Below, piece after piece: positions 7,351 through 64,000 of a stretch of 64,000 bases of DNA; position 1 is the first letter of the stretch; each line of letters begins with the position of its first letter. The position numbers were made by a program, and so were the translations under genes. The notes below the pieces were generated by a model. It saw only the letters and a program-made list of their open reading frames with translations, was not told the origin of the DNA and searched no databases. Source of the DNA: Leucosporidium creatinivorum (taxonomy: Eukaryota; Basidiomycota; Microbotryomycetes; Leucosporidiales; Leucosporidiaceae); contig BCKL01000028.1 in NCBI GenBank assembly GCA_001600635.1, positions 280,076-344,075 on the forward strand, read 5' to 3'.

Positions 7351-7446
7351 GCCGAGCGACGGCTCGTCTCTTGCTTCCCTTCACTTCACTACCGCAGCTC
7401 GTCTACTCTCCACCTCGAACCCCAACTCACCAACACTACCAACATC

Positions 7447-11273: not shown

Positions 11274-11628
11274 GGTAGGATTCGAGGCGAGGGCGTCGGA
11301 GGCTTTGATGAGAGGAAAAGAGGTGAGCTAGAGTCGAGCCTCGTCGGCGCGATGGAGTCGACGCTACTAGACTGTAGCTTTGGCCCTGCGAGGATGATCG
11401 GTGTGCTGCTCTCGATCAGCCGGCGCCGAGCAGGGCAGTCAGCTCGAGAACGAATGGATGAAGAAATCTGTTTGGTGTATAACTCTGCAGCAGGCACAAC
11501 TAGGAAACCCTCCTTCTCCTTCTTGCGAACTGAAACACCGATAGCCGTCTCCTCCTCTGCCANCGAGCCGTCNATAACTCTGCTCCGAATCGCCGAGCTT
11601 AACCTCGCTCTCGAAACGCCGTGACCCA

Positions 11629-12555
11629 CTACTGCTCGGGCGTAGGCTTGACCTTGCGCGAGTAGAACTCGTCGAGAACTTTCTGTGGGTNGTGAAGAAG
11701 GAGGGGTCAACGTTTGGTCGCATGCGAGAGAGGCGAGAGGGAGACGACGAACTCGAGGGATACGGTTGAGTTGCTGTTGGGGGTGCAAGAGGGAGGGGGG
11801 TCAGCGATGAGAGTCAGGAGTAGTAGTGCGATAGAACGCACCTCGCGAGGGAAAGTCCTGAGCAGCGACCAGGCCAAGTCGAGCGATTCGAAAACGGTAC
11901 GGTTCTCCGAAATGCCCTGGTTGACGAACTCGTTCTCGAACTGTGGTGGTGTAGCATTAGCGGTAAGACCGTGTAGTAGAGTAGGATTGATGACTCACGC
12001 GGCCAAGGAAGGACAGGGCGAGCTGTTGAGGGAGGGANCGTTGAGTTGGTCAGCTCGGTCGGCGGGAGGAAGCCCAAGTCGAGCAACTCACCTTCTCCTC
12101 CGCGCTGAGTGCCTCTTCTCCTACGACCGCCTTCATGCCAGCAGTATCCTTGCCGATAGCGTACATCGAGTACATCCTGCGGGGTCAGGGCGAGAGAGGG
12201 AGAGGAGGAGGGGGAAGGGGAAAGAGAGAGGCCGAGCTTGGAAGTCAGCGTCTTGCTTCGACTGAACTTCAGAACCATCGAAAGTCAGGACTCAAGCTCA
12301 AACTCACTGGTTGGACACATCACCGTGATCCCTCCTGGTCAAGCCCTCGCCGATAGCAGACTTCATCAGGCGCGAAAGGGAGGGGAGGACGTTGATGGGC
12401 GGGTAGATCTGCTTGTTGTGCAGCGTACGGTCCACCGAGATCTGGCCCTCGGTAATGTAGCCCGTAAGATCAGGGATCGGGTGGGTGATGTCTGTGAGCG
12501 AGCGGGGTACAAGCGGGAGGAGCGCGAAAGAGCTCGGCGAACGGTGATGGACCCT
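11629..12555 (-). pseudogene. VMA2: 3' fragment of V-ATPase subunit B gene
   Basis: On the minus strand this copies the last six exons of the complete gene at 12892-16173. It runs from an acceptor at 12492 (exon 12308-12491, same 184-nt length as exon 8 of the full gene) to the stop codon at 11629-11631. It encodes [20 protein letters not shown] through KVKPTPEQ with only slight changes, for example KDTAGMK in place of KDAAAMK. The 5' two-thirds of the gene are absent. Sequence upstream of 12492 has only partial similarity to the corresponding intron, around a shared GGGTCCATCACC near 12546-12557. Without start, N-terminal barrel or most of the nucleotide-binding domain it cannot encode a working subunit. 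N bases at 11563, 11573, 11691 and 12038 fall inside the block. Confidence 0.85.
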
Positions 12556-12891: not shown

Positions 12892-15800
12892 ATGGCGCCC
12901 TCGACCGCCGACCCTCGTATCTCTGACCGCGAGGTCCACGCGTAAGCTATCGCTTTACAGCTTTTGACAAGCAGCAAGGAGCGGCTCCACCACTTCGAGG
13001 CTCGAGTGGGTCTATGGGCGCTCTGCTCGCCGAGGGAGGGGCTCAGTTGGCCTAGATAATCTACAAGGCTACAGCAGGCCGGTCTGCCTGCTCACAGCTA
13101 CTCTACAGAGCTGTAGCGGACCAGACGGACAAGCTCGAGCGTAGCGTCACGGTCGCCGTCCTCCTTGGGCTGAGCGGAGCCATCCAGCAGGTTAGGCAAG
13201 CCGAACTTCTAGCAATGAGTACTGACCTACATTATCTCTCCATATCTCTCTTCCCGCTCTCCTGCACTTCCTCTCTCTCCCTACCGAATCGCACCCACCT
13301 CCGACCCACGCCTCCTCCCCTCGGCCCTCTCGTCTGATCGCCTGGATCGTGCTCCCTCTCTACGTTGGCGACATTACACCTTCTTAACGCATCCTCTGCC
13401 ATCTTCGCTGCCCTTCAAACCCCCTTCGGCTGCATCTTGAACAGCATCAACGCAGCGGCCGCCGTTCGTCGCTACGATGTCAACCCCCGTCTCGACTACA
13501 GGACCGTCTCGGCCGTCAACGGTGGGTTTCTGATATCTCCCGACAAGCTTCGATGACACCTCGGAGCTCTTGAGACCTGCAGCAGCGGCGATGGACTCGG
13601 CGGGAGATGCACACGGTCTCTCGCGCTCAGGCGTCATGTTCGTCCAGACGAGCAGGCTACTGAGTTGCAGGGGACTGCCAGGATCTCTCGATTTGTTGAG
13701 GGCACCCTGTCGCTGATGGGGTGGATTTGGAGAGCCGCCATGGGAGCATGCAACGAGCTCACGCGATATGCTGCTCGCGGCAGGTTGACGTTCAGATGCG
13801 GCGACAGGCTTCGAGGGAGCGGGGGAAAGGGGATGAATGCACGTCTCAGAAAGAGGGCGTGGTCACAAGGCGGATGAGGTGCTCTGGCTGTTCGGCGCTT
13901 GTCGACCTCGGCTGGCAAGAGCCGCTTCTGCACCGCAACTTTGATGGCTCTGAGACTATCTTACTGACTCTCGCTCATTCAACAGGTCCTCTGGTCGTCC
14001 TCGACAACGTCAAGTTTCCCTCCTACAACGAGGTAGGTCATCGGCCGCTCTCGCCGAACCGCTTCGCTCACCCCTTCGCTCCCCACAGATCGTCCAACTC
14101 ACCCTCCCGGACGGAACCACTCGTGGTGGACAAGTCCTCGAGGTTTCTGGCCGCAAAGCCATTGTCCAGGTCTTCGAGGGAACCTCGGGAATTGACGTCA
14201 ACGCTACTCACGTCGAGTTCTCGGGATCCAGCATGAAGCTGCCCGTCTCGGAGGACATGCTCGGTCGCATCTTTAACGGTAGTGGAAACCCCATTGATAA
14301 GGGCCCCAAGGTTTTTGCCGAGGAGTACCTTGACATCAATGGGGCGCCCATCAACCCCTACTCTCGGATTTACCCCGAGGAGATGATCCAGACGGGTATC
14401 TCGACCATCGACACGATGAACTCCATCGCTCGTGGTCAGAAGATTCCCATCTTCTCGGCTTCCGGACTTCCTCACAACGAGGTAGCGCAATCTTGTCTCC
14501 TTCGCCGAGCAGCCTCGCTGACTTCCTTCTTACTCATCTCTCCCCTCCCTCTCTCGCTCCACAGATTGCCGCCCAGATCTGTCGTCAAGCAGGTCTCGTC
14601 GACAAGAAGTCGACCGAGCGCAACCCCGAGTCGGCGCCTACCAAGGGCATCCACGACGGCCACGAGGACAACTTCTCCATCGTCTTCGCCGCCATGGGAG
14701 TCAACATGGAGACCGCTCGCTTCTTCCGTCAAGACTTCGAGGAGAACGGATCGCTCGACCGCGTCACCCTCTTCCTCAACTTGGCCAATGACCCCACGTT
14801 CATTGCCTTCGTTCGCCTGTCGTTAAGGAGCTCGCTGACCTCTCCTTCTCCAACAGCATCGAGCGTATCATCACTCCTCGTCTCGCTCTCACCACCGCCG
14901 AGTACTACGCCTACCAGCTCGAGAAGCACGTCCTCGTCATCCTCACCGACATGTCCTCCTACGCCGACGCTCTTCGTGAGGTCTCGGCTGCTCGTGAGGA
15001 GGTTCCCGGACGTCGTGGTTACCCTGGATACATGTACACGGAGTGAGTCACTTACTTATCGGATCCGAGCGAGTAGGCGGACGATGGAGCTGAGCTGACA
15101 TCTTCTCGCCGAACGCAGTTTGTCCACGATCTACGAGCGCGCTGGACGTGTCGAGGGCCGCAACGGGTCCATCACCCAAATTCCTATTCTCACCATGCCT
15201 AACGATGGTGCGCCGCAACGTCTCTCCCCTTTCATCTCGCCTGCTACCAGCTCAGCGCCGAGCTCGTTCGCCAAACTAACCCTTGTCCGCCCTCCTTCTC
15301 TACGCTCGCTCACAGACATCACCCACCCGATCCCTGATCTCACGGGTTACATTACCGAGGGCCAGATCTCGGTGGACCGCACGCTGCACAACAAGCAGAT
15401 CTACCCGCCCATCAACGTTCTCCCCTCCCTCTCGCGCCTGATGAAGTCTGCCATCGGCGAGGGCTTGACCAGGAGGGATCACGGTGATGTGTCCAACCAG
15501 TGAGTTTGAGCTTGAGCCTCCTCATCACCGGTTCTTGAAGAGGAGAGCCCGAAGCTGACTTCAACGCTCGGCCTCTCCTCTCCCGCCCCTCTCCCCTTCT
15601 CCCTCACCATTCTCTAACCTCGCAGGATGTACTCGATGTACGCGATCGGCAAGGACGCTGCTGCCATGAAGGCGGTCGTAGGAGAAGAGGCACTCAGCGC
15701 GGAGGAGAAGGTGAGTTGCTCGACTTGGGCTTCCTCCCGCCGACCGAGCTGACCAACTCAACGNTCCCTCCCTCAACAGCTCGCCCTGTCCTTCCTTGGC

Positions 15801-16173
15801 CGCGTGAGTCATCAATCCTACTCTACTACACGGTCTTACCGCTAATGCTACACCACCACAGTTCGAGAACGAGTTCGTCAACCAGGGCATTTCGGAGAAC
15901 CGTACCGTTTTCGAATCGCTCGACTTGGCCTGGTCGCTGCTCAGGACTTTCCCTCGCGAGGTGCGTTCTATCGCACTACTACTCCTGACTCTCATCGCTG
16001 ACCCCCCTCCCTCTTGCACCCCCAACAGCAACTCAACCGTATCCCTCGAGTTCGTCGTCTCCCTCTCGCCTCTCTCGCATGCGACCAAACGTTGACCCCT
16101 CCTTCTTCACNACCCACAGAAAGTTCTCGACGAGTTCTACTCGCGCAAGGTCAAGCCTACGCCCGAGCAGTAG
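12892..16173 (+). CDS. VMA2: V-type proton ATPase subunit B
   Basis: Thirteen exons: 12892-12941, 13445-13521, 13986-14032, 14089-14481, 14565-14797, 14857-15042, 15119-15207, 15316-15499, 15626-15710, 15780-15803, 15862-15960, 16029-16049 and 16120-16173, giving 513 residues, the usual length. The sequence follows the family almost without gaps: [103 protein letters not shown] and [20 protein letters not shown]. Subunit B is the non-catalytic nucleotide-binding subunit of the V1 head, which acidifies vacuoles. Introns 1 (503 nt) and 2 (464 nt) are long, while exons 10 (24 nt) and 12 (21 nt) are microexons. The donors at 14798 (GTTCAT) and 16050 (GTTCGT) are weak but demanded by the protein. 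N bases lie in introns at 15764 and 16111. The 3' half is copied inverted at 11.6-12.5 kb. Confidence 0.95.
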
Positions 16174-16525
16174 TGGGTCACGGCGTTTCGAGAGCGAGGT
16201 TAAGCTCGGCGATTCGGAGCAGAGTTATGGACGGCTCGGTGGCAGAGGAGGAGACGGCTATCAGTGTTTCAGTTCGCAAGAAGGAGAAGGAGGGTTTCCT
16301 AGTTGTGCCTGCTGCAGAATTATACACCAAACAGATATCTTCATCCGTTCGCTCTCGAGCTGGCTTCCTTGCTCGGTGCCGGCTGATGGAGAGCAGCCCA
16401 CCGACCATCTTCGCAGGACCAGCGACAGTCTAGTAGCGTCTACCACTTCGTACTGACAAGGCTCGACTCTAGCTCACCTCGTTTCCTCTCATCGAAGCCT
16501 CTGACGCCCTCGCCTCGAATCCTAG

Positions 16526-16556
16526 AAGTCCGTCCGCGACGGTGGCGGACAGACTT
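16526..16556. terminator. Hairpin between convergent VMA2 and POP5 (right)
   Basis: AAGTCCGTCCGC (16526-16537) pairs with GCGGACAGACTT (16545-16556) across a 7-base loop, with one mismatch. It is the counterpart of the perfect hairpin at 11243-11273 and again lies between two converging genes. A termination role is inference. Confidence 0.45.
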
Positions 16557-16880
16557 AGCGAAATCGGCGAGGCTGCTGAGGCCGTCACTCTCGCTCGTTC
16601 TCATGGCGTCGAGATTGGCAGACGAGCTGAGCGCTGGAGCAGGATTGGAAGACCGTCGAGCGGCTGAAGGGGCGCGGAGAAGCCGCACGCGAGTCGAGAG
16701 AAGAGTGCTCCGCTGGACTCAAGTCGCCCGGCTGCGGGCCTTGCGATGCTGTATCGAAGCATATTAGCCCACCACTCTACTCGTTACAACAGCTATCCTA
16801 CATCGTCCACCTTGATCCAGTCTCCTCCTGCGAGCGAGCTAGACCGACCCGCCCTCGGCGCTCCCCTCGCCTCACCGCTG

Positions 16881-18747
16881 TTACGCGTCCATCCCCATCA
16901 ACTCCTTCTCGCTCTGCTCCAACAGACTCTTCGTACCCTCATCCATCTCCTCGAGATCTCCCTCGTCTACAGCTGCCGTCTTCGACCCCATTGCTGCTGC
17001 TCGCCGACGCTCAGCTCGTTTACGCTTGGCTGCGGCTTCCAAGATCTCGGCGCGGTCGTACGCGATGGCGGCGTGTTGAGTCTTGCGGATGGTTCCTATT
17101 GGTGATGTAGGACAGTGTCAGCTGGGCTTCGAACAGGGGTAGGGGTCGAGTCGACGAGCGTCGAGCTGAGCGAGGAAGAGACGGCGACTGGAAAGTGCGA
17201 GGTGAAATGGAGCGAGAAGAGGAAAAGACGAAGACACCGCATCAACTCACCTCCCACATGCAAGCACCTGACGATCACCTCGGCCCCGCCAATCCTCCTC
17301 AGCAAGGTCAACGCCGCCCAGAGCGTTCGGTAGTGCTCGCGCGAGACGCGGATGATGAGGATGTTGGTGTGCGGGGAGAGGTATTTGACTGTCGGTAAGG
17401 GACGGATTGAGGCGATGTGGAAAAGAAGGGGTGAGGCAGAGGGAAGGGCAGAGGGCAGTGGTGGAAGGCGGAGAGCGAGGGAGGAACGCAAGGTCAGTTA
17501 CCCGCTCGCCTAAAGGAAGAGATCGCGAGTTTGGGCTAGGGGGACGGCACTGCACTTGTGGACGACGGGAAGCAGGTCGGGACCCAGCACCGTCGCGCCC
17601 TCACCCGAGGCAAGGACACGAATGGGGAGGCGACCGACAACCGCCGAGCAGCGAGAGAAGCGTGAATGAGCTTCACGACACCAACTCGGGAGACGCCACT
17701 GTGACCCAGCAAGGGTCATGCTAGCTTACCCCGAGCCGGCTTCAAATCAACAGCCTACGCAGCTCGCGCAACCTGCGCCGCCAAGCGAGCTGAAGGCTGA
17801 TGCGAAGGGCTGAGGCGATCTCGAGGGTACGTGAGCGATTGCAGTAGCGCTGTGTAGCTAGGGTAGCGACCACGCTCCGAGCGACGAACATGGAGCGCTC
17901 CCAGCGCATTCCATCGCCGAGAACCGCCGGTAACCGCTCGGAGCTTCTTCTCCAGCCCTCCTTGCGAGGGCCGGGGCACTCGGGAGAGGTCAGCCATAGC
18001 ACTGTTGAGCCCTCACTTCAAGGAGTCAAGGTTCCGACAGCGCGGTTCCGAGTCCTCGAGCCGAGTAAACGGCGGAAGGGTGCGAAGCGTTCACGCAGGG
18101 CACGAGAGCACCAGCGTGAATCTCTGGAGGACTCTGTCGAAGCTTCCTTTCGTAGAGAGCTCCCGTCGTGGAGTACAGCAAACCAGAGCCTCCGCACTCT
18201 GAGCGGCGAAGACCTCGAGCGCTGACCTACGAGCTCACGAGGCTGCGATGGAGGAGGGAGTAGCGAAAGAGAGAAGTACAGCTCACGATCCCCGCAAGAT
18301 TAACAGACGCCTCCCACAAGAGCTACAGCTCTCGCAGCAGCGCGTCTGTGAGCTGAGGGCCGCCGGCTGCTCTTCCTGCTTGCATCGAGTCGCCCTACAG
18401 CCTTGAAGCTCTGCTTCAAGCTCCTTCAAAGCTCGTACAGCACCGCCCTGCTCTTCTCCACCCTCGGCTCTGCTTCCTCTGCTCCCTCAAAGCTCCAGCC
18501 CTCCCAGCTAACAGCGATTCTGCACCTTCCCGTACTCACTGCCAAAGCTGCCACCCACTTCACCCGCTCCCACGTCCCCAAAGTTGACACTGAGACTGTC
18601 CCTCAACAGCGAGATCAAGCCCGCTTCGCCGACGATTGGTGCAGAGGGGAGTTGCTGTTCGTTCGAGTTGGAGTCGGCGAGAGGGTTGGCCAGAGTGGTA
18701 GGGAATAGGAGATGTAGCAGAAGATAGCGGTGCTTGAAGCGGACCAT
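16881..18747 (-). CDS. POP5: Ribonuclease P/MRP protein subunit POP5 (right copy)
   Basis: Three exons on the minus strand: 18540-18747, 17251-17388 and 16881-17095, giving 186 residues. Start MVRFKHRYLL, core SPHTNILIIRVSREHYRTLW and LHVGGTIRKTQHAA are shared with the left copy. Exon 2 (138 nt) and exon 3 (215 nt) have the same lengths in both copies; exon 1 is one codon shorter. The first intron (17389-18539) is 1151 nt and homologous to, but clearly diverged from, the long intron of the left copy. The C-terminal tail ends ELMGMDA. The protein is a subunit of RNase P and RNase MRP. The gene converges on VMA2. With both copies open and the changes mostly conservative, I infer purifying selection on both, but a ratio calculation is needed. 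Confidence 0.88.
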
Positions 18748-18850
18748 TTTGCTGTCGAGCCGTAGCCGAGCAGAGAAACGAGGTGCGATGAAGGGAGAGG
18801 GAGAGAACCGAACGAGGGTGAAGGAGGCGAAGTCGGCGAAAGGGTCCAGG

Positions 18851-21546
18851 CGACAGGCGGCAGGCGATTGAGGACAAGAATAACAGAATGAACCCAGCAA
18901 CAGCTCGAGCACTTTGCTCACTTTGCTGCCAGTTCAGTCATGTCCTGCCCTCCCGCCGTCGGCGCCGAGCATGACAGCCTTCGTCGGGCCGCGCGGCGAG
19001 GTGTCCCTAGAGGCCGTCCGCGCGATGATCTGAACAGCGAATAGTTCCTCGACTACCACCTACCACCCTGACGAGCCAGTGGCCCGCCTAGGCGATGAGA
19101 CTGGGCGAAGAGGCGTCTCGGCGTTGAGAAGCATTCTATGCGAGCGCGATGCCGACACATCCCATGACTCAGCGGCACACGAGAAAAGGCGAGCAGGAGC
19201 CACCTTCATCCCGCTTCCCAGCGAGAGCGAATCCCTCCCGAGAGCGCGAGAAGGAGCGCTGAAGCTGCCCCAGTTCTTCCTTCGCCGAGCAGCGAGCCTA
19301 GATCTCCATCATGGGCCCAGCAGGAAGCACGTCCGCCCGATCAACTTGTACGCTGAAGCAACTCCACGCCATCTCTGCGCTCGAGGCTGGCCGAACACCG
19401 AGCAGACGATGAGGAGCGACCGTAAGCTGGGCAGAGCGAGAGGTCAAATGCGGAGCCGAGGGCTGCATACCAGTGAGGACTTATGCCCAAGTAGTTTCTC
19501 CGCCGAGACGATACAGCATATAGTAAAGCTTGAGAGCTGAAAGACGAAGCAAGAGCCGAGCACGGAGCGAGCAGCGAGAAGGAGAGAGCTGATTTCGACT
19601 TGCTCGCTCTGCAACCTCTCTCCTCCTCCACTTCTCGCCCTTCGTCTCGACTAGTTCGCCTCATCGTAGGGTACGGCTCCTCCGCTCATCTACAGGACCA
19701 CAGCTCAGGACGGAAATCTGCTTGACTCGACTGGGAGCGGTTGCGGAAGGAGAGCAGCTCGAGATCAGGACGGGAGGAAGGCGCTGAGAGCGCTCGGCTG
19801 GGCTTCGCTGAGAAATGGGATTGGACTGGAACTAACAGAGTGAGACAGGGAACGGGTAAGCACCTAGTACGATGGCTGGCTGCTTCACTGCAGACGCTGA
19901 GGAGGGTGCGAAGCGCTGCCAAGATCATACACTCTTGAGTTGGGGGTCGCTCGCTCGCATGTTTTGCTCAACGGTCTATCGCTGATAGTCTGTAGGGCCG
20001 ACATTACAGTAGAGTAAACGGTCTCATTTTTGTCTCGTGGTCAGTGTAGGCCATCTCTCTCGACTCTCAGCCGCTTGCCGAGCTGCAGAGTTCAGATCCT
20101 CGCGTTCGCTTGATCTGCCTACTCCGCGTGAGCTGGGAGAGTGAGTGATAATTTGTTCGAGGTGTCGGTCTCTCCATCATCTTTCCCCGCAGCCGGTAGG
20201 CGAGGATCAAGCTCTTCGGCTGATCTGCGCCTAAGGGGCACCGAGCCTCCGCCTCACCCGCTCGTCGGCTACTCAAGGAGCAGCGGACTTGGGACAATGT
20301 TGAAATCATTTGCCCTCCTCAAGTCTGATCAGCTCCCTCACCCTGCTTCTTCCACAACAGCAAGCTCTCGGCTCGGAGGTCCCTCATCGGCGGCGGCGCT
20401 CAGCTCGACTTTCGCTTGCTGGTCTCTCTTTGCAGCGAAAGAGCGCTACGGGAGTGTGAAGTTGTGCGATCGATCCGAATTTGCCCGAAAGCTGAGCAGC
20501 TCAGAGTACGCTGCCAACCCAGATCGAGCCGACTGAGCTGGCGCAAATGGTCGCCGAGGAGCGTTCACCGATACTCTGGCTCGCGACAGACAGCGAGCCG
20601 GGGAGCGGTGTCAGCACCTCTGTGCAGAGCCTTACACGTTTGTGCATGAGATGCTCCTGGGCAGTTGAGGCTTCAGCGCCTAAGACTCCGCGCTCGGAGC
20701 AGCAGCACCCATCGCCGAGGCTCGCCCCTCCCTGCTTAGGAGGGGGAAAGAGCTCAGCTTGATGACGGGGAGCTCTCCTTCCCTATCCCATTTCAACTGT
20801 GAAATACCGCCAACTTCGCATAGCTGGCCACTGCTCCGCCCGACCCTCCGAGCCGCTCGCTTGATCTGCGCCGACTCGCCCTCAAGCTTCGCCGAGCTAC
20901 CCTCGTAGCGAGCTACCTGCCTCGCCGCGTGGTCGACGTGGTAGTTGGTGATGAGGTGTAGGTTGGTATCGGTCGATCTACACAAGTCTTCGGAGGGACG
21001 CAGCGGCAGGCGAGCTGCAGGCTCACAGTTGGCAGCCGCTTCCTCCGGCGCCAAACACTTGCGACTCGCTCTCTCTTTGCCGTTCATCTCTGTCCGCTTC
21101 GACGTAGGGCCAAGATACAATTGCGCGCTTGAGCGACTCTGCACCGTATCAGTGCGGTTTCACGACGTAGCAGCTATCAGGGGGGCATTCGCATCGCCGG
21201 CAGTCGACGAGGGCTCATAGGCATGGGCTCTCGAGCGTCCAGGGTCGATGAACGCCTCCTCGTCTCTGGAAAAAGCTATCATAGCGTCTGAGATAGCTTC
21301 TGCAAGCCTCTGAGGAGTTGAGGCAGCAACAGCCCGTGTTCGGTGCACTTTCGGCTTTCGGGCGAGCTCGCAAGTGAGCTTACTGAGAGCTGATCGTTCG
21401 CCAGAAGGAGCAAGAGGGTCTTTGGGATATGTCGGTGCAGTGGAGTGTCTATCGAGCTACCCTAGGAGGACGGAAGGGGGGGCCTCTGAGCCATGACGGA
21501 AAGTCAGCTCCAGCTGCAAGACAACGATGAGGAGCCTCGCACCTGA
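18851..21546. other. 2.7-kb gene-poor stretch
   Basis: This region lies between the right POP5 leader and the second secreted gene. The left arm has only about 0.55 kb at the equivalent place. Several open frames exist (for example 19079-19540, +) but none shows a signal peptide, a motif or consistent third-position bias. CGCCGAG-type words are frequent. I see no RNA gene. Confidence 0.35.
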
Positions 21547-22474
21547 TTACGCGGAGGTGGTGAGGGAGAAATCAAAGTACTGCTGAGTAGCCGTAGGATA
21601 CTACACGAAGGATAGAAAAGGTCAGCTCGCATTCGCCGAGGACTCACGCCGAGGAGAGGTGGAGCGAGCTGAGAAGTCTGACGCACCTCGAGACCCTTGT
21701 TGTCACAATTAGTGAGGGTGACAAGACTCCCGTCGCCGGTGTAAGTGATGCACTGACCTTGATAAGCGCTTTGGAACTGGCATCGGCTGGCGGCCTCCGA
21801 AGTGCAGCTGCTGCACGTGAGGAAGAACTGCTCGGGATTGCGTCAGCTAAGAAAGAGTCAGTTTTCTTATAAATGAGCCTACATCCTGACGGCCGCGAGA
21901 GTCGGTGCAGGATCCACCAACAACGCCCTTGCCCTCGGCGATCAAGCAGCCGTCCTTCTCGATGGCGCTGGTCAGCCTGTTGAGGGTAGGAATCGGGTCA
22001 GCAGTGCTCGGCGACGATGATGAAGCTTGATGTTTCGTACTTGACCCGGACAGTGCCCCTTGCCGAGTTGCTGACGACCACATTGAAGTTGGGCGCTGTG
22101 TCGGAAGCGGCCATCGTTCCGCGAGTTGCCTACAGAGAGCGCGAGGCCGGTCAGCTCCAGGGTTGGAGGAGTTGGTAAGAGTCTACTCACCACCGACAAG
22201 CTTGCGAAGCCGGTTTTAGTGAGCCCGGTGGGAGTGAAGACCTCGCGAGCTGTTCGGCGAAGGGGAGGTCAGTCGGGGTTGCTCGCTCGGCCGCTTGGTG
22301 CCGTTACTCACCCGAAATGTCGTAGCGGATGAGAGCTGGTACACCGGTGGGTGCCGGCCTGCAGATGGCAGGGTTCGAGGCGCTGCCAGTCGGGGCGTCG
22401 CAGGCTTGAAGTGGGGTGGCGGAAGCGCCGAGAGCGAGAAGGGAGGTAGCGACGAAGGCGATGGTGAAGAGCAT
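21547..22474 (-). CDS. Small secreted eight-cysteine protein (copy 2)
   Basis: Six exons on the minus strand: 22312-22474, 22191-22249, 22041-22129, 21883-21976, 21687-21827 and 21547-21600, giving 199 residues. The first five exon lengths are identical to those of copy 1 at 7447-8378. The signal peptide is MLFTIAFVATSLLALGASAT. The mature protein keeps the eight cysteines of copy 1 plus one extra near residue 25 (LQACDAP). The core reads GRQDFFLTCSSCTSE, CQFQSAYQGQCITY and GSLVTLTNCDNKG. The family is not recognised. The promoter has the same TATA context as copy 1. Amino-acid divergence from copy 1 is far greater than between the two POP5 copies, though both pairs sit in mirrored positions. 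Confidence 0.82.
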
Positions 22475-23070
22475 GGTGTTCGAGTACGGGGAGATGAAGT
22501 TGAAGGTGGGGTTAAAAGACGAGCTGAGGCGGTGAAGTGAAGAGGAGGAAGAGCCGTCTCGCTCGGCTTTTATACCTGTTCGCCTACACTGCTCGCTTCC
22601 TTCAGCTGTTCAGGTTCGAGCACTGCATTGCATGTACCGCCGTGGACTGTTTTAGAAGCTGGCGAAGGTGAAGGTGCAGCTCAAATTGGTCCCGACCAGA
22701 TGCGACTCGCTAGCGCCGAGGGTCGAAGGAGCGGTGCTCTCCAAATTGGTGAAGTCGAAGCGGCAAATACTCTGTAGGAGAGCAGAATATATAGTGCAAG
22801 CTGTGTGAGAGCCGACGTAATGATGTCAGATCTTGGTGCAAAAGTAGCATGCCGGCGTTCGGAGATCCCTCAAGCGAGCTCGGCGTTCGCGAGTCAGAGC
22901 TCTCGAAGGCGCGGACCTGTAGGTAAGGGTGAACAACGAGTTGCTTTCTAATCAATTACTGCAGGTAATGCGTTCTATGGATCCGATGTGTCGTCTAAGA
23001 GGTCGACTTGAAATTCTAATGAGTGGAGCGCGGTGCGAAGAAATCCCGAGAGTCCTGTTCTCCAGCCACT
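22475..23070. other. Intergenic, promoter of secreted copy 2
   Basis: The first 100 bases hold the leader and TATA box of the minus-strand secreted gene. The remainder lies downstream of the sugar transporter. A few AT-richer words occur near 22780-22820. No gene is recognised. Confidence 0.4.
22568..22574 (-). promoter_or_regulatory. TATA box of secreted copy 2
   Basis: TATAAAA on the minus strand, about 94 bases upstream of the ATG at 22474. It lies in the same AACAGGTATAAAAGCCGAGC context as the TATA box at 7344-7350. Confidence 0.7.
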
Positions 23071-32199: not shown

Positions 32200-35100
32200 T
32201 ATTTGTAGTCGAGCCCCCTCTCCTGCCGAGCCGAGAGTCAGCGCCGAAGGCTGTTCGAAGGGGCTGTACTGCAGTATGCTCACGTAGGTTTGTCTAGTAG
32301 ACAGAGTACGAGCTGCTGACCTGCCTCTAGCGGGGTGCAGCCCACCTGTTGGAGAGAGCAAATAGGTCAGCTCGCTCTCAACTTCGCCGAGCTCACTTTA
32401 TGCCGACCAAGGCAACGGCTCTCAGCTCCCCAGCAGACCCGCATGATCAGTTGCACCACTCGAGCCGCTGCTTACTCAACATACGACTGCCCTTTGCGCA
32501 ACTTCGATTGCGTAGAGGACCAGCCGAGCGAGAGTGGAACGGCCAAGGGCACGGCCGCCAGCGTGGTATAACAAGATACCGAGATCGATAAGGGTTCTTG
32601 TAACGAAGTTGGCAATGGGGTGTAGCTTCCAGCGCGCTTGGATATACAGCAAGCACGCCGCAAAGCACCGCGGGCTGCTCCGCAACCGACGCCGAGACAA
32701 ACTTCTCGAGGTCGTCAGTGGAAAGCCATCTGCCTTGACTGCACTCAAGCTGCACTGCGGGTGTGTGTAAGAAGGTGATGTTCGGCCAGCTCTGCAAGGA
32801 ACATCACGACACCCTCGTTTGACCGACGAGAGCAAGCGCAACGAGAGCTCGGCCGAGAGCTCGTCTTCTGAGATCAACAGCAACACTCTCCGAAGGCAAG
32901 TCAGGCTTCAAGGACCATTAAGATCGAGGTCGGCATCTTCGATAGGGTAGCCTGCAGCGAAGCATCGGTCTCGCCGAAAGCAACCGAGTCAAACTCGAAG
33001 CGCCGAGCCGATCCCCGTGGTTTGCCTCAGCTGTTCACCGAGGCTAGGTGCAGTCCAGCGGCACCACGATCTTCCCGAGTACGCTTCAGAACCCTACAGC
33101 GACGCTGAAGGAACCCGCTGGCGTCGTGAGCTCGCATCCGCCGCTTGACTTGATTGCCTAGGCGAGGCGGCGCCGATGTGCGCATCCGCTATGATGAGTC
33201 TGAACGCCCATGGGTACCAGGCCAGTGTACCCTCAGACCTTTGCACAGCACCGAACCCTCTCTCAGTCCTTGCAGACCGAAAAAGGAGCTCGGTCGGCGA
33301 GAGTGTCTCGCTGCCCAGCGTGCCCTGCAGCCAAGTGTGCCATCTTCCACATATTCGGAGAGCGCAGAGCCATCGCCAACGCTACAGCAAGCTCCAGGAT
33401 GTCGTGTTAGCTTACTGAAGCCTGTCGAGAACTGTCGCTGTTGCCTGCTCATCGCGAACGCCGAAGCCGAACGAGGCCTCGTCGAGCTTATGCAACATCT
33501 CAGACACTCGAGCATCGGTTCGTGGTCGAAGATCAATCAGACGCCTCCGTCCGTTATAGAGCAAACGGAGAGCCCTGACAAGACCTGCAGGTGACCGACG
33601 CTCGGTGAACAGACTCAGCTCGCCCAAAGGGGACACGTTGTTGGGCAGCAGGATTTGAGGTAGCGCAGTTCAGGCTTGATGCAGTCGAGCAAAGCCTCGC
33701 ATTCATCTTATCAGAGCCTCCTAACGGCGTCTGTGTCGCCGTCAAGCAGGTCCAAAGCGAGGGCGAGCCATCCTCGGCGTTGCTACTCAAGCTTGTTCAA
33801 CGCTCCTCTTTCTAGCCAGGCCCGACCAGAGTGACCTACACCCAGCAGCAGCCACTGTCCATACAGCTGTCAGCTGAAGAGCAGTAGTCTGAAGTGAGTA
33901 GCGAGCCTGCTCCCTTATATACCAAGAGAGTGGGCGAGCGAGCGCTGAGAGATGGGATGAGATGGGATGAGAGAGCTTCAACGAGCTTGGCAGCGCTACG
34001 CATCCATCGTGTTACGCAACAGAAGAGTGACGCAAGGAATGCTGCAGTCCTCCTGCCGCGATCTGAGCTCTGACCCGCAGAGGAGAGCAACGCCGAGCTC
34101 GGCGAGCGGCCGCAATCGCCTTGTCAGGATCTGCAAGTACCGCGATCTCACGACTGCAGCTATTTTTTTTGCTTCTCTGCTCGTCTGCATCGAGTGCACC
34201 CGACGAGACCTCAGCTCATCAAGCAAGCCCGAAGGAGGGCGAGGTCAGCTGAGCTCCTCTGAGAGCCTTGCTGTCCTAGACCAGGCGGCACAGCCTTTCT
34301 TATTTAGAGCTGGAGCCATCGTACACCCAACTCAACGACCACCCTCCACAAGACTCCCAATCCCGCAGCGAGCCAGCTGAGAGCGAGCGTCGAGCCTCCC
34401 ACGCTTTGTCGATGAACGCGGAAGGTGTTCAAGCCGTTCTGCTAAGATCAGCAAGCGCAGGGATCGTCCCGAGCAGTTATACTGCGCTCCCCATCAACAA
34501 GCTGCCGAGGAAGAACACAGGGAGCCAGAGATGATCCTGCGCCCGTCGCCGAAAGCGTAGGCGCCTCGAAAGAGGGAAGGGACCCTCAGGACGCCGTGTT
34601 CGTATTGCCAGAGTTCTACTCAGCACTGACCGCACATTACCGACGCAAAGAAACGCCCCTCGTCGACTCATCGAACGCCCAGCAGCCTTGGTCAGACTGC
34701 CAAGTGTGCGAAGCGAAGGCGAGCTCTGCCTCCAAGCCGGTAGGGACGCTGTGCAGCGGCGCTGACGGCGCGCGAGTCTAGACTTGGGAGGGCATCAAAC
34801 GGCTGGCCTACAGCCACCTCCCATAAGACCACCAGTCTCGCAGGAAGTGAGCTGAAGTCGAACGCCGAGCCTCCGAGTCCCGTCTTCGGCGATGAGCTCC
34901 TCCTCCTCGAGGCAAGCACTCTGCAGCTACGTACGGGCGGATTTGAAGCACCTCTATGCTACCGAGCTCACCAATACTAGCCCACCGTCAGACGACACAG
35001 AGCCAGCACAGGAGCCGCGGGAGTCGAGCGCCGAGAGTCGAGAGCCGAGCGGTCGAAGAGCGAGCAATACTGCCTCACTCGCCTCTGTAGCAAGATCTCA

Positions 35101-35450
35101 TCTAAGGGACAGCTCCAGAGGATGCTGGTGGAAGTCCAAGACCATCAACGTGCCCAGCAAACCCCTTCTGAGCCTGCCAAGCGTATCGAAAGAAGCGACG
35201 CCGAGCAGCTCCTGGATCTCGGAGGGCTACTCAGTGACTGCTGTGTGCGTCTGCAGAGACTCGATAGAGATGTTCGCTACAGTTGCCTCCCACAGAGCCT
35301 ACAGCCCCGCAGACAGCCCACTGAGCCGTTCCCAGCTCGCTCCCTGCTCGGCGTGCGATCAAACAGACTTGAAATGGCGGGTTGACGAGAAAAGCGGAGC
35401 ACCAGCTCACTCAGCATCCTCATGAGACGTCGAACGAGCTGCAGCCTTCC
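32200..35450. repeat. Dispersed subtelomeric-type repeat, copy I
   Basis: This block of roughly 3 kb recurs in inverted orientation at about 59500-62100. Matching landmarks are 32410-32520 with 61930-62020 (shared CATACGACTGCCCTTT), 33410-33500 with 61400-61500, 34080-34290 with 60630-60860, 34600-34690 with 60220-60300, and 35180-35420 with 59530-59760. The landmarks are colinear on the inverted strand. Small indels are frequent, and frames such as RNRLVRICKYRDLTTAAIFF are shared by both copies, but I see no recognisable transposase, reverse transcriptase or helicase motif. It may be a decayed element or non-coding subtelomeric DNA. Confidence 0.7.
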
Positions 35451-37533
35451 TCTCGCTCGCCCCCCTGCTCTCGACGCATCCTCCCAGCTCAGCCCAGCTC
35501 AGCCCTCGCGCGAAGACTCACCTTTGCCCCAGTAGCTGAGCCAGCAGAAGTCTCTCCTACTTTCTCCCTTCCTCCTCCTCCAACTAGCCCCGACCGAGTC
35601 GTCCGTTACGATGCGAGAGGCGATTGGAGTTGAGCGAGAAGATGCGAGTGAGCTGAAGGGGTGCAAAGTGAGAGGAGAGGAGAAGGAGATGTCGGAGAGG
35701 ATGTGCCAATGTACTGTAGTCGAGCCGCCGAGTCGGGAGCGAAGAGACGAGGTGAGCGTAGGAGAGCAAGAGCGAATTCCAGTCGAGCGGTCGACTTGAG
35801 CGAGCTGCTGTAGGCCTTCAGTCGAGCTTCAGCCCGTCTGAAAGCAGCGAGAAGATGGATATGCATACGTCTACGCCGCAAGTTCTCTTAAATTGCACTC
35901 AAGCTTCCTCAGAGGGCTCACGAGCGGCCTAAACGAGCGCCGAGCCTCGGCGATGAGCCTGAAGCGCTGTAGGTGAGCTCTTTAGCAGATTCGTGAGTTC
36001 TGCTAAGTCGTTTTGAGCCTAAGGCGCCACCTTGGACCAGCCCATGCGCTAACTGACTACAGCTGCCGATCGCAACTCCTCTCGCTCCGCCTTGAAAGAC
36101 TTCGCGATTTGGGACGCGCCTCTCTTGCTTCCTTACCTCTCACTCGTCTCTTGGTGCGTTTCATCTCAGCTCACGGCACTCCACAAGCTAACCTTCTACA
36201 CTACAGTACTACCACGCTGTAATCGCACCTTACTTCCCACATCTACATCGACTCGCCCGTTTTCTTTTCCCCCTTCTCCCACCAACAACGCCCCGGCTAT
36301 GACTTGTAGCTCGTTTCAGCCCTCGCGGCTAGTCACACAACGACCAACTTTTAATGTCGGGGCAGACCAACGTTCGCTATCTTTTGCCACCATGTCTCGC
36401 ACTCGTAATGTACCCTTGACGCTGGCGGTCTCTTCACGGGGGCACAACGGCCGATGGGGTCGTATCGATCCAAGCGCTCTGCAGATGCCGGTCTTATATA
36501 GCGGCGACAGTCTTCTCAACTACTTGCAACCATGCTTTCTCCCATCATCTGTCAAGCGTCGTCGAGTCCGAGCGAGAGCGCTGTGAGATGCGAACCAGCT
36601 GTAGTAAGAGGACCGAGAAGCTCGGGAAAGGTGGACAGCAACCTGAAGACTTGCGTAGGAGATTTGAGTAGGCTGTAGGGACTTCGACAAACGCATCGAA
36701 GTCGGGCGCTGATGGCCACGAACCGAGCGCCGAGCGAGGACTGAGGCGCCAAAGGCGTTGTCTGAAGGCCGAAAAGGATGCGAAGGGTGCAGAAAAGATG
36801 TACAAGACTTCGCCAACTCTCAACTGGCTACTAAGATCCCCTCAAGCACTGTCAAACGACCTCGGAGCTGAGCCAGCTCGGCCGAGGGAAGGAGGAGAGC
36901 TCGAGCGAGGCGCATTGCGCGGTGTGCTCGATTCGAGCTTAGCATCAGAGCTCTGAGAAAAGCCTCGAGCTGGAAGCAGAGAAGCGGAAGCAAGCAGGGA
37001 AGGCAGACGGTGGGAAGAAGTGCTCGGCGCAGACGAAGCCGTTGGTAGTAGTTGAGCCTTGAATAGGCTACAGAGATGTCTGCGCAATCCCAGAGCCATT
37101 TGCTTTGATGTATCGACACGCCTGCGCTCCTTCACATGCTATAACTGTCTACAGCTCGGAGGGGCTCAGCTGCGACGCGAATCAACTCTCCCTCCGCTCT
37201 TCACCTCGTCGTTTCTGTACCTCGTCCTTCAACTCGCTAGAGGCTATGGAGTACTACAGACCCTCCGCTGCTCTGCTACACTCAAATATGGCCCCTCTCG
37301 CCTGCCAGTGAGCTCGCCGGCTGGCGCAAGAACTGTTCCGCCTGGCCCTTCGCAGGCCTCATGAGGCGCCTCGCAAGCGCGCGAGGGCGAGTCGGAGACA
37401 TCGGTGGAGATTGATAGGGAGAAGTGTGCTCCCCCCAGACTCCAACTCGGTTTATCCCCCCCTCCTCCTCCCCGCCCTCTCCACACTCGCCTTTCTCTCT
37501 CTCTCCTACATCTCATCCAGGTCACAAGCAAAG
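35451..37533. other. Gene-poor stretch upstream of the P450
   Basis: No gene is recognised. Short frames on both strands (for example 36092-36586, + and 36820-37119, -) lack motifs and consistent codon bias. The last 100 bases before 37534 are C/T-rich and probably form the P450 leader. Confidence 0.35.
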
Positions 37534-54323: not shown

Positions 54324-55146
54324 ATGATCTTGTACGTTCCTTGCTCACTCTCCTGGCTCGTAGCTGACACTTTGCTACCACTGCAGCTGCCCCTACTGCG
54401 CCAACCTGTTGACGGTAGCAGATTGCGGTGGCCTCAACAAATGGAGCTGCAAGACGTGTCCCTACGAGTACCCTATCGAGAAGGCGGTGAGTGTGGTCTA
54501 GCTCCCGTCTACGCTGCTCTGTAGCTGATCAGCTCGCTCGCGTGACAGTACACTGAACGGACGCACTTGGAGAGGAAAGAGGTCGACGATGTGCTCGGCG
54601 GGGAGGACAGCTGGGCGAACGTCGACAGCGTCAGGAGTGAGTTCAATCGTCGCTTTCTGCATGATCAAAGCTGCAATAGGCTACAGGCAGAGCTGACAGA
54701 CCGGTCTCCTCCCCTTCTCCTCTCGCCGACTTCGCTCTTCATTCATCTCTCACCCACGAACACCTTTCCGTTCGGATCAACCTAATCGTCTACACATCCC
54801 CCTCTTTGCTCTGCTCGCCGCACCACTCGTCTAATTACCTCGCCTCGACCGCTCTTCCTCCACCGACTCTCGTCTCTCGCCCTCATTCCTCCCCTTCGAT
54901 CAACACCTACACGATCAACTCAACAGCCGACTGCAAAAAAGAGTGCGGAGCCGATCGCGCCTTCTACATGCAGCTGCAGATCCGTTCGGCCGACGAGCCG
55001 AGCACGACTTTCTACCGGTTCGTCTCGCCTGCTATCCACGCTTCCTCTTCGCTCGTGGGTCGGGAGAACGGTGAGTATCATGCTGACGCTGTGCCGAAAC
55101 CAGGTGCTGCAACCCCAAGTGCGCGTTCCAGTGGAGGGAGGATTAG
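54324..55146 (+). CDS. RPC11: DNA-directed RNA polymerase III subunit RPC11/RPC10
   Basis: Five exons: 54324-54331, 54387-54486, 54549-54636, 54927-55017 and 55104-55146, giving 109 residues, the normal family length. Exon 1 holds only 8 nt (ATG ATC TT); it is accepted because splicing gives MIFCPYCANLL, the conserved N-terminus. The N-terminal zinc ribbon uses C4, C7, C24 and C27. YTERTHLERKEVDDVLGG is a strongly conserved linker. The C-terminal TFIIS-like ribbon has the catalytic acidic loop RSADEP and ends CCNPKCAFQWRED. RPC11 mediates RNA cleavage by Pol III and is needed for termination and reinitiation at tRNA and 5S genes. Intron 3 is long for this genome (290 nt). All phases agree. 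Confidence 0.93.
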
Positions 55147-58920: not shown

Positions 58921-59499
58921 GGTGGTCGTTGAAGTGCTCTGAGAGGTGCTGGTGGGGAACGAGCGCCGTAGCGAGGCGACGGCTTTCGATGTTGGTGGTG
59001 CAGCTGAAGGGGAAGGGGAGGGAGGGGAGACCATTCCGAGCGAGCCAACCAGCGAGAGGTGATGAGGTACAGAACAAGTGTAAGCGGAAGACAGCGACGA
59101 GACTTGGGCACTTTGGGATTCGAGCGAGGCGCCAGGAGGAGAGGAGGCTCTTACCCTCTTACCACTTTCACTTCGTCTGGCTTTGGTCGACTGCGATGCT
59201 ATAGCGGTGCAGCTTCCACCGCTGCTGTGCTGCTCCTGTTCAGCTACAACCGCAAACTCGACGCCCGAGCTCACCTCGCGCTCTGCTTCTCTCGCTCGCC
59301 CTGCAACAGCAGGACGACTCAGCAGCTTCGCACGGCTTCCAGCGGTGGTTCGAGGTAGCTTAAAACTACTGCTGCTCACTCAAAGCTCCTAGGGTACAGG
59401 TGGGTCCTCGTGCGAGGGCTGAGCTGCAGTCGATGAGCGAGGGGAGGGTGCGTCTGAAGCGGGGAGGGGCGAGCAGAGGGGAAGGCTGCAGCTCGTTCG
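58921..59499. other. Upstream flank of the RhoGAP gene
   Basis: This holds the promoter and possibly upstream exons of the minus-strand RhoGAP gene. An open frame continues in phase to 59379, but it is crossed by acceptor-like sites and lacks conserved sequence. Confidence 0.4.
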
Positions 59500-62100
59500 A
59501 CGTTCTATGAACACGTTGCATGGGCGTTTTGTCCGTTTCCGCCTTGAGCCTCCCACTTCAGGCCTGTTTGATCGCACGCCGAGCAGCGAGTGAGATGAGA
59601 GCCGCTCAGTGGGCTTTTCGTGGAGCTGTAGGCTGTGCGGGAGGTCACTGTATCTCCGTCATCGCCGCTGGTACCCGCAGGGCGTTTTAAACAGCTCTCG
59701 GCCGTCCTGGAGCTGCTCGGCGTCGCTTCCTTCGATGTGCTCGGCGGGCTCGGACAGGGCCTGCTGGGCGGCTCGGTGCTTGGCAACGGGGAGTATGTTA
59801 TCTATAGTACACTCGGTGCCCGGGCATTGCATCTGAATACGGGGTGGGCGGAGTAGCTTCTCGTTTCCCGCGTTCAGGCTCTGGGCGCTCGACTGCCGCC
59901 GCTCCTGTGCTCGCTCTCCATCTTCTGATAGTGGGCTAGCTCGGGTGAGCTCAGGAAAATCGCGGCGCTGTACGCCTGCCTGCCATAGCTGCAGGCTGCT
60001 TGCGAGGAGAAGCACGTTCACTCCGAAAGGGAGACTTGTCGCTCAATTCCAGCTCACTTTGTGCGAGACTGACGGTCTTGTGGGCGGCTGCTGTGAAAGT
60101 CGCGAGAGCGGGATCCTTCTGATGCATGTCTTCGTGCGGGCAGAGCTGCACTGCACCCTGCTGTGAGCAGCTATAGAACAAGGCTCGCCTTCCCTTCGAA
60201 ACTCTCGGCGGTCTTGCAAAGGGCTGCCGGGCGTTCGATGAGACGGCGAAGGGCGTTTCTTTGCGCTGACAGCGTGCGGTGAGTGCTGAGTAGCACTCCG
60301 TCCATGCGGACACGGCGTAGTGAGACTTTCCTTTTTCCAGGCGCCTACTCTCTCGGCGACGGGCGCAGAATAACCTCTCGCTTCCTGTGTTCGCTCTCGG
60401 CAGCTTGTCGATGAGCAGCGCAGGATAGTCGATGGGGAGGAATCCTACGCTTGCTGATCTTAGCAGACCAGCTTGTACACCTTCCGCGTTTATCGACAAA
60501 GCATGGGAGGCTCGGCGCTCGCTCTCAGCTGGCTCTCTACCGGACTGGGGAGTCTTGTGGAGGGTCGCCGTTAATGTGCGAGTCCAATGACTCTAGCTGT
60601 AGATATAAAAGGCTGTGTTCGCCTGGTCTAGGACAGCAAGGCTCTTAGAGGAGCTCAGCTGGCCCTCGCCCTCCTTCGGGCTCGCTTCCTGAGCTGAGGG
60701 CTCGTCGGGTGCACTCGATGCAGACGAGCAGAGACGCCCAGAAGGTAGCTGCAGCCGTGAGCTCGCGGTATTTGCAGATCCTGACAAGGCGATTGCGGGT
60801 GCTCACCGAGCTCGGCGTCGCTCTCCTCGACGGCGCTGAGCTCTGAACGTGGCGGGGGGACTGCAGCCTCACTTGCGTCACTCTTCTGTTGTACAGCGTG
60901 ATGGATGGGAGGTGCTACAGAGGTCGTGGTGTCACTCCCATCCCAGCTCGCGGCGCCTGATTCGCCCCGCTCCTCGGTTCAAGGCGCAAGCTCGATACCC
61001 ACTGCAGTGACTTGTCCATCAGCTGAGAGCTGCATGAGCCAGAGCTGTAGTTCCGGGTGTACAGTTCGGCCTCATTGCATTCTGATTGGAAGCAGAGAGC
61101 TACTCAGAGCCCTTGATGACCAGCGCCGAGCACGGGCTCTACTTCGCTTCGGACTGTCTTGGCAGTGCATAGGCGCCGCTGGGCGGGTCTGATTACGCGA
61201 ACGTAGATTATAGGTCCGACAGTAGCAAAGTCACCCTGGATTTGACGAAGTCTGGCTGCCCGCCATTATTTCTGCAGAGAGCGAGTTGGATCTGCGCCGA
61301 GCGTCGGTCACTTGGCGGCATTTGTCCGTGCTTTTCCCTCGCTGTGCGCGGCAGGAGGTTTCGCTATGCTCCCTCCAAAAGTCGATGCCTGCGCCGGTCC
61401 GATGTGCAGCACGAGGCCAGCCCGTCTCGTTCGGCGTCGGCGTTCGAGAGGAGCGAGTGGGTGCTGGCGACGGCTCTCCGCAAGCTTCAGTACCATTTCA
61501 GGCCGCAATGAAGCTTGCTGTGGTGTCCCGGTCATCCCACACCTTTGCACATTCTGGTAGACGGCCCGGCTGGACTACAGAGCACGCCAGGCATGGAGTC
61601 ACTTCCGCCGACCGAGCTGCTTCTTCAGCCACAGAGGGCTGAGGAACAACTGGTTCTTGGTGTTGATGAAAGGTTCTACGCCAGCTTCTGCAGAGCTCAT
61701 GTATTGCACCTGATGCGCTCGTCGACGCTCGCTGGTCTCGGCGGTCGAGCAGAGCGGCGGATGCGAGCTCACGACGCTAGCAGGCTCCTTCAGCTCCGCT
61801 GTAGGTCGCCGAAGCGTACTTGCGAGGCCTCTTGCTGGACTGCACCTGACCCCGATCAACAGCTGGGCCAAACCAAGTGGATCGGCTCGGCGCTCCGCGC
61901 TCGATTGCTTTCGGCGACGCTGAAAGCGGGCTTCACGGAGTTGCAGCTTCGTAAAGGGCAGTCGTATGTTGGAGAGGGTAATTGAGTGTTGAGCCTGATC
62001 ATGCGAGTGTGCTGGAAGCTGAGAGCCGGTGAGTTGGTCGGCATGAAGTGAGCTCGGCGATGTCGAGAGCGAGCTGACCCAAGTCTCCCTTTCGCAGATG
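59500..62100. repeat. Dispersed subtelomeric-type repeat, copy II
   Basis: This is the inverted partner of 32200-35450, ending about 1.9 kb from the telomere. Shared frames include RNRLVRICKYRELTAAATFW on the minus strand (60645-60881) and CSACDQTGLKWE near 59530-59600. It carries no recognisable mobile-element enzyme. Its position next to the telomere suggests that the internal copy derives from a subtelomere, or the reverse. Confidence 0.7.
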
Positions 62101-62466
62101 AGCTGCACCCGCAGTCGATGTAGCGTCCTTATAGACTAGTCGATCCCTTGTACATGGTTTCACTGCAGCACAGCCTCCATGCGCTGCTGGCCGTCCGAGC
62201 ATGAGCGAGCGCCGAGAAAGGGGGCCAGCGGTTGAGAGAGCAAGGAGCGATATCGAAGCAGCTGAAGCGGGTTCTTAACACTACCATCGACGCCTCACCG
62301 CACTGCTACGCTCTCGCCACTATCTCACTACAACTTTCGAACTTCGTCTTGCGTCGCGCGCTCGCGCTCGCTCTCGCCTCTCTTTCGCTCCTCCTCTCAC
62401 CTCGTCTCGCTGATTCCACCTCTTCGGCGCCTCTGCTACACTACACTACAAGTCACACCCCTCTAA
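62101..62466. other. Promoter region of the terminal gene
   Basis: This sequence precedes the last gene. The final 100 bases are C/T-rich with several CTACACTACA-like words. No other feature is seen. Confidence 0.4.
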
Positions 62467-63958
62467 ATGGCGCCCGTCGACCCGGGAACGGCCATCGCCT
62501 GGGCTAAGCGACCGCTATATACCGATTCCCTCCTCAGCCAACTCGCCCAGCTCCCTCGCAGTGATGCCCAGCTCCTCCTCACGATACAGCTCTCGGAGCT
62601 CGGTCAGACGCTCAGCAAGAGACGGATGATGCTGCTGAGGGAACTCACGCCCAAGTTGTTCATCGCGAGAGGAGAGGGAACGGTCAAGGCCAAGAGTGAG
62701 AAGAGTCACGAGGGCAGCGTCAGTAGAAGGCTACAGCAGTGAGTTTTCAGCTTCTCTACAGAGCAGCAGGCGGGAGAGGGAGCTGCAGGACGGAGGGCAG
62801 GGCTCACTCCAGAGCGCGTCAAGTCGTCTGGCGCGTTGAGAGCTGGATCGCTTCTGTAGCTGTGTAGCGCAACGGAGGGGAGCGGAGGAGCTCAGCCTAT
62901 CAGCTTTAGTGCCCCTTGGACTCGGCCCTGACCGGCTTTGACCCTCCGCAGACTCTCCACCGAATTCCGCAACTCGCTCAACTCGCTGAGAACGCTGCAG
63001 GGGCAAGCCAAGGCCGACAAGGAGGGTGAGTTTTACACGAAACGCTCAAGTACACATTTGATCTTTCCTGTGTGCTCACCTCGCTATGCTCCACAGCCTC
63101 CATCCGCCTGGCTTTCCCTAGCTTCGACCGACTCCACTCTCTCGGCCACGACGATTCACAATACCTCCCTCACGACGAGCGACTGCTCGCTACAGATCAC
63201 TGGCGACCGTTCAGAGATCGTCTGGCGTTCGTCGAGGCAGCGGATGCGGCCGAACAAGCTGAAGCAGAGGAGGATGCGATGGAAGGTGAGCGCCGAGGTC
63301 GTCTCTGGTTCGCCGAGCGCCGAGCTGACCTTTATCCTCTCGCAGGGATTGAGTACAACGCTCGGCTTCCACCACAACCCGTAGCTGGACCCGCCTACCC
63401 TCAGCAACAGCCCGTTGCTCTTCCGCCGAACCCTCCTCCTGCACCTCCTCCACAACCTCAGCCTCCGCATGCCCAAGCACCTTATCACCACCCGCCGTCA
63501 CCCTTTCTTGCCCCACAACTCAACTCTCCGCCTCGTCTCGTCGTCCACCCGGCTGCCGCTCGCTCGCCTTCCGCTCCACTCGGCGATCTCACCCACTGCC
63601 CGACTTGCGACTACGCCCTCACGACCCTCTCCGCTTCCGCCGCGACCGACCACCTCCGACAATGCCTTGATGGCGCTGGGGGAACCGTCATGCAATGCCC
63701 GGTCTGCGAGCTCGATTTAGGGAGCTTGGGAGGGAAAGCTCGGGAGACGCATGTGGATGCCTGCTGCAACGGGGGAGTTGGGACCGACAAGGGCAAGGAG
63801 AGGGCTAGGGAGTATGCTGGTGAGTTTTTGGGCTCCGGAAGAGCTTCACTCGCTGCGAGTTGGGAGCGAGGGCGGTCGAGAGCGCGACCGACCGAGATCG
63901 AGCGAGCTGACCTTGCTGCCCATACACAGAGTTCAAGGCCGGGTTAGGGTTGGGTTAG
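62467..63958 (+). CDS. Telomere-truncated gene with zinc-finger-like Cys/His clusters
   Basis: Five exons: 62467-62738, 62952-63025, 63097-63285, 63346-63819 and 63930-63958, giving 345 residues. The N-terminal 170 residues are helix-rich and of unknown family (LSQLAQLPRSDAQLLLTIQL). A Pro/Gln-rich linker is followed by two Cys/His clusters, THCPTCDYALTTL with a later DHLRQC, and MQCPVCELDLGSL with ETHVDACC, which resemble UBZ-type C2HC zinc fingers. The last intron has a GTGAGT donor, GAGCTGACC branch and ACACAG acceptor. The last exon then reads AEFKA and runs straight into the telomere: GGG TTA GGG TTG GGT TAG, so the residues Gly-Leu-Gly-Leu-Gly overlap the repeat and the stop codon is telomeric. 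The gene therefore looks truncated by chromosome breakage and telomere addition. The original C-terminus is unknown. Confidence 0.75.
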
Positions 63959-64000
63959 GGTTGGGTTAGGGTTGGTTAGGGTTGGGGTTGGGTTAGGGTT
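63941..64000 (+). repeat. Telomere repeat array (TTAGGG with TTGGG variants)
   Basis: From 63941 to the end of the window, TTAGGG units alternate with TTGGG, TTGG and TTGGGG units. Five TTAGGG units are present and the G-rich strand runs 5' to 3' toward the end, as at a right telomere. It directly abuts coding sequence at GCC|GGG, with no intervening subtelomeric DNA at the junction. Confidence 0.97.

Follow-up and report, generated by a model that had tools for sequence, protein, structure and literature searches.

How does a protein-coding gene come to finish inside a telomere, and what does the telomere then do to the end of the encoded protein? The last gene in the stretch of DNA analysed here (the window, 64,000 nucleotides in length) raises this question, as it points outward and its reading frame passes into an array of telomere-type repeats at the window's edge. 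An open gene model, a gene/array junction at 63940/63941 and an in-frame TAG within the array can be read directly from the letters. How the arrangement arose has to be argued from them, and a break in or just beyond the gene, followed by healing through telomere addition, is the best explanation, which we hold with moderate confidence.

The setting is that of an ordinary chromosome. Specifically, the window (G+C ~59%) carries a gene for the RNA polymerase III subunit RPC10, whose top three matches among PDB sequences are all so named (best E 3e-33), and it therefore belongs to a nuclear eukaryotic chromosome, probably that of a basidiomycete yeast. Base composition and intron style appear to fit red yeasts such as Rhodotorula, for which two genome papers, one of them PMC12509554, give 59.4% and 61.7% G+C together with TTAGGG ends.

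The terminal gene is modelled as five exons on the + strand, spanning 62467-63958 (Table 1), with 345 codons plus a stop, no internal stop codons and exon phases of 2,1,1,1,0. All four introns share a GTGAGT or GTGAGC donor, a CTGAC or CTCAC element 18-21 nt before the end and a terminal CAG, and the description of the final intron as well formed, given in an earlier sequence-only reading, is borne out, as its signals match those of the other three. On the + strand between 62400 and 63960, intron-like donors were found four times compared with a mean of 0.14 in shuffled sequence, and none of 300 shuffles reached four; this result leans towards the model because the search pattern was defined only after the introns were known. 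Across the whole window and both strands, the intron pattern occurs 53 times; 20 shuffles gave 15.5 on average and never more than 21. Codon usage, scored with a training set of seven unannotated ORFs, favours the coding frame in exons 1-3, where it is the best frame, whereas the proline-rich exon 4 scores -1.5 in the coding frame versus 0.3 for the best other frame, which counts slightly against the model.

Table 1 Features of the terminal gene, the telomere-type array and the remainder of the window
Feature	Position	Strand	Description
Exon 1, terminal gene	62467-62738	+	ATG at 62467; open; phase 2 at end; own frame has best codon score
Intron 1, terminal gene	62739-62951	+	213 nt; GTGAGT..CTGAC..GCAG
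Exon 2, terminal gene	62952-63025	+	gene model
Intron 2, terminal gene	63026-63096	+	71 nt; GTGAGT..CTCAC..ACAG
Exon 3, terminal gene	63097-63285	+	gene model
Intron 3, terminal gene	63286-63345	+	60 nt; GTGAGC..CTGAC..GCAG
Exon 4, terminal gene	63346-63819	+	proline-rich in part; two zinc-finger-like motifs, C-x2-C...H-x3-C
Intron 4, terminal gene	63820-63929	+	110 nt; GTGAGT; CTGAC with A 20 nt before end; ACAG
Exon 5, terminal gene	63930-63958	+	starts in phase 1; 11 non-telomeric bases, then array to TAG
TAG stop, spliced frame	63956-63958	+	within array; tenth exon 5 codon, the split codon being the first
TTAGGG/TTGGG telomere-type array	63941-64000	+	Tandem Repeats Finder; 60 bases, continues to window end
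RNA polymerase III subunit RPC10 gene	54324-55146		five exons joined by eye; open from ATG to stop
Inverted repeat, 2.7-3.2 kb	59368-62111; 32333-35551	+; -	~69% identity, main part
Duplication arm pair	10384-12504 vs 15303-17405		88%
Duplication arm pair	8950-9881 vs 17888-18823		79%
Duplication arm pair	7150-8249 vs 21671-22760		71%

The array reads GGG, TTAGGG, TTGGG, TTAGGG, TTGGG, TTAGGG, TTGG, TTAGGG, TTGGGG, TTGGG, TTAGGG, TT. Its ten units comprise five TTAGGG, three TTGGG, one TTGG and one TTGGGG, so that 5/10 are canonical. The 14-base telomere pattern TTAGGGTTNGGGTT, searched with at most one mismatch allowed, matched once against an expectation of 0.01 from shuffled versions of the window, and the exact string GGGTTAGGG is confined to the array among both strands of the 64 kb. 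The array is not a chance occurrence; at 60 bases it is short, it touches the edge, and we infer that this edge is the chromosome end. Considered as RNA, it has an ordinary folding energy (z 0.21). Its first part, 63941-63973, consists of three perfect copies of the 11-base GGGTTAGGGTT, in which TTAGGG and TTGGG alternate. This 11-base unit may be the telomere unit of the species, or it may reflect an array that is old or was mis-read; a search for 11-base strings such as TTAGGGTTGGG in print gave, among the matches listed, no title on a fungal telomere. For two Rhodotorula species and for Microbotryum the published repeat is TTAGGG, in contrast to the five non-canonical units among ten found here, and the TelFinder paper, whose main text does not name Rhodotorula, covers 21 Basidiomycota, mostly with TTAGGG and some with variants (PMC10100673). 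Sequencing error could account for the variant units, as could an older, mutated array.

Nothing lies between the coding exon and the array. Exon 5 contributes 11 native nucleotides, AGTTCAAGGCC (63930-63940), and reads G/AG TTC AAG GCC GGG TTA GGG TTG GGT TAG, that is, EFKAGLGLG*. The last exon had been said to encode AEFKA, of which EFKA does come from exon 5 and the initial A comes from the final complete codon of exon 4. The same reading had the exon entering the TTAGGG array in frame and meeting a TAG inside it as the tenth codon, and this is correct. Its headline, that the telomere supplies the stop codon, applies to the spliced model; a different TAG, equally part of the array, takes over if intron 4 is retained.

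A stop within an array of these units is expected. When the ten observed units were drawn at random, in 20,000 entries into 200 units that all reached a stop, the first stop came at a median of 11 codons, with 95% within 51 codons and the longest open run at 189; with TTAGGG as the sole unit, two of every three entries stay open throughout. Splicing puts the message into the Gly-Leu frame of TTAGGG, which an all-canonical array never closes (125 codons tested), and the earlier remark that TTAGGG offers TAG in some frames only is accurate for this exon, as pure TTAGGG would give it a Gly-Leu tail with no stop. The spliced stop stands at 63956-63958 because the second unit is TTGGG, without the A. 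Making unit 2 canonical shifts the stop two units downstream, and the same change in any single one of the remaining four variant units leaves it where it is. The exact stop of the spliced message therefore rests on one telomere base call. The further proposal, of a protein end that could change as the telomere rearranges, is correct in principle: the array frames that begin at 63941, 63942 and 63943 close at codons 6, 2 and 9.

In the favoured account, a double-strand break would have occurred in or just after the outward-pointing gene, with loss of the distal part. Subsequently, telomerase would have added repeats to the broken end from GGCC or GGCCGGG onward, and the first TTGGG unit would have moved the Gly-Leu frame into TAG. 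The 3' end of the transcript would then bear UUAGGG-type repeats, and the protein, if the message is spliced and translated, is predicted to end ...EFKAGLGLG. Given the gene model, repeats are joined directly to coding sequence as at a healed end. The 2.7 kb repeat that lies just inward of the gene may or may not be a subtelomeric element. The healing put forward in the sequence-only reading survives as the best explanation. Its companion claim, that the gene was truncated, found no backing in two collections not meant for fungi: scans for orthologues gave five stretches that fit a pattern in viral_contigs and 38 in genome_contigs, none of them confirmed, and no orthologue with a longer C-terminus was found in either.

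How much protein, if any, was lost is where the first alternative enters. In a gene that naturally ends within a few residues of the junction, the telomere may have taken the place of no more than the final codons, the stop codon or the 3' untranslated region, leaving a nearly full-length product. Such an end near the junction is possible because both zinc-finger-like motifs are encoded entirely before it, in exon 4, and there is a precedent in one Plasmodium falciparum 3D7 end, where the telomere directly follows a gene that is intact (PMC5550746). The motifs were found by eye, and their profile matches are sub-threshold. The terminal protein matched no Pfam family at cut-off, gave a single, sub-threshold NCBIfam match to its proline-rich part, and had no significant relative in the PDB sequence search, in which DNA polymerase kappa appeared at E 0.014. 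For an 81-residue, single-sequence model of the zinc-finger region, predicted with low confidence (mean pLDDT 68.5), the best Foldseek match was the FAAP20 UBZ at E 4.9. Membership of the UBZ-type ubiquitin-binding zinc fingers was considered, and neither profile nor structure gave a significant match; the predicted model and the weak similarities to UBZ fingers hint at a ubiquitin-binding type without establishing one. Within the window, tblastn at E up to 1 matched the terminal gene only (4 rows), and no copy of the gene was found next to the other copy of the inverted repeat, at 32333-35551. With or without splicing of intron 4, the frame meets no stop before the array, and exon 5 has only 11 bases that are not telomeric, which makes a natural end at this point unlikely.

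Doubt may also fall on the join itself. If a telomeric end had been mis-joined to the gene, or if bases of the array were wrong, the true sequence past 63940, or the stop, would differ. An array of 60 bases at the window edge with half of its units non-canonical invites this suspicion, as does the behaviour of the spliced stop, which a canonical unit 2 moves and an all-canonical array abolishes. The array is, however, oriented as befits a right-hand chromosome end, its G-rich strand running outward, and is placed at the very end of the window; the three perfect 11-base copies at its start look systematic rather than random; and the intron-retained stop, TAG 63945-63947, needs no variant unit. 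An assembly artefact is on this evidence distinctly unlikely.

Exon 5 might, furthermore, go unused if the transcript stops in, or keeps, intron 4, in which case the spliced stop would never be translated. Exon 4 and intron 4 together do stay open as far as TAG 63945-63947, though the ~41 stop-free codons through the intron have a chance of about 0.32 given how often stops occur locally (174 of 6318 codons), and the codon score of intron 4 in the retained frame is about neutral (-0.6). The donor, branch distance and acceptor of intron 4, however, are the same as those of the other three introns, and the retained frame likewise ends within the array. We regard an unused exon 5 as quite improbable; it is compatible with healing, and the degrees of confidence given to the various readings do not sum to one. 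An interstitial array, with the chromosome continuing past the window edge and the repeats beside or within the gene, is highly improbable: the repeats are still running at 64000 and one Rhodotorula pacifica scaffold contains internal tandem telomere-like repeats (PMC12509554), but the sole array found in 64 kb sits exactly at the edge, where a contig end fits better.

Other parts of the window carry repeats of their own. The inverted repeat inward of the terminal gene reaches 80-86% identity in a core near 60242-60837. Its copies differ by indels of which 8/37 are multiples of three, and their tblastx matches fall in several frames and on both strands; it looks non-coding and is possibly a dispersed subtelomeric or mobile element. 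An RNA gene in the 2.7 kb repeat was considered and set aside, with no Rfam family and no clear structure excess: the whole window holds no family at gathering score, the two copies gave three chance-level matches (E 1.2-1.5), the core of copy A folds no better than shuffles on either strand (z -0.38 and -0.81), and that of copy B, folded on one strand, does weakly better than they do (z -1.48, with 11 of 200 shuffles as good). A nested inverted duplication occupies 7150-12504 and 15303-22760, its identity dropping outward from a centre near 13.9 kb. The spacer ORF at 13954-14823 has an ATP synthase alpha/beta barrel-domain match, and the ORF at 8865-9428, which overlaps one duplication arm, falls just below the Pfam cut-off for the Rpp14/Pop5 RNase P protein family (22.4 vs 23 bits). 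Pfam was searched with 20 of the 168 window ORFs of at least 120 codons, one of the 20 as a shortened piece, and two of these 20 matched at E 0.001.

A telomere joined to coding sequence is of an already known kind, and a plain healed end would be one more case of a known process. The notable details of this one are the Gly-Leu frame, an exact stop set by one pentamer unit, and the outward orientation of the gene. Running from the inside towards the G-rich repeats, the gene has the orientation of a TERRA-like source, and if transcription continues outward, its message would be telomeric-repeat RNA, by analogy with read-through in Trypanosoma brucei (PMC8402208). It is a long shot that this is a living, spliced ATG gene whose mRNA serves as coding message and telomeric-repeat RNA at once, with a Gly-Leu tail and a C-terminus that telomere turnover edits as a stop/non-stop switch. 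Were this true, the placement of pentamer units among the earliest repeats would set the length of the tail and decide whether it ends at all. Provided that the join is genuine and that transcription takes place, the locus would constitute a natural test of how a cell handles a telomere-ended message. It would then probe splicing to a last exon with 11 native bases, telomeric silencing and the formation of a 3' end where the chromosome itself ends, in addition to quality control when variant units determine the stop of a message.

These findings can be set beside several known systems. A limited search of open-licence PubMed Central text gave, among the matches listed, no basidiomycete case in titles or the starts of abstracts. 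In P. falciparum 3D7, hallmarks of healing are reported at 5/28 ends, with 4/28 being telomeres fused inside truncated var genes, and the fusion of telomeric repeats within or beside coding regions is one such hallmark (PMC5550746). The present locus is alike in that telomeric repeats are fused directly to a gene's coding region. The P. falciparum events, however, were verified with long reads, two of them as before/after pairs, whereas here the end product is known from sequence alone; the truncated var genes are called pseudogenes (PMC5550746). No second copy of the present gene was found in the window. If healing is the true account, the locus also resembles de novo telomere addition in Saccharomyces cerevisiae, with telomerase acting at a break and the chromosome truncated, although those additions were mapped at hotspots and the end product is what is available here (PMC10055226). 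For the smaller subtelomeres of Trypanosoma cruzi, recent breakage and telomere healing have been suggested as the origin; in the part of the table concerned, nearly all ends have junction sequence and a first gene at least hundreds of bases away, whereas the distance here is zero (PMC3418195). As with read-through from the active VSG of T. brucei, a gene pointing to the chromosome end can run into the repeats; there, transcription by RNA polymerase I is reported, whereas here it is the coding frame itself, as read from the DNA, that enters them (PMC8402208). Finally, Gly-Leu and Val-Arg dipeptides have been proposed to arise from mammalian telomeric RNA (Al-Turki and Griffith, via PMC10144170). 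The mammalian Gly-Leu product uses the same TTAGGG frame as the spliced frame described here, which, in contrast, is reached by way of an ordinary gene with an ATG start and ends after the five residues GLGLG (PMC10144170).
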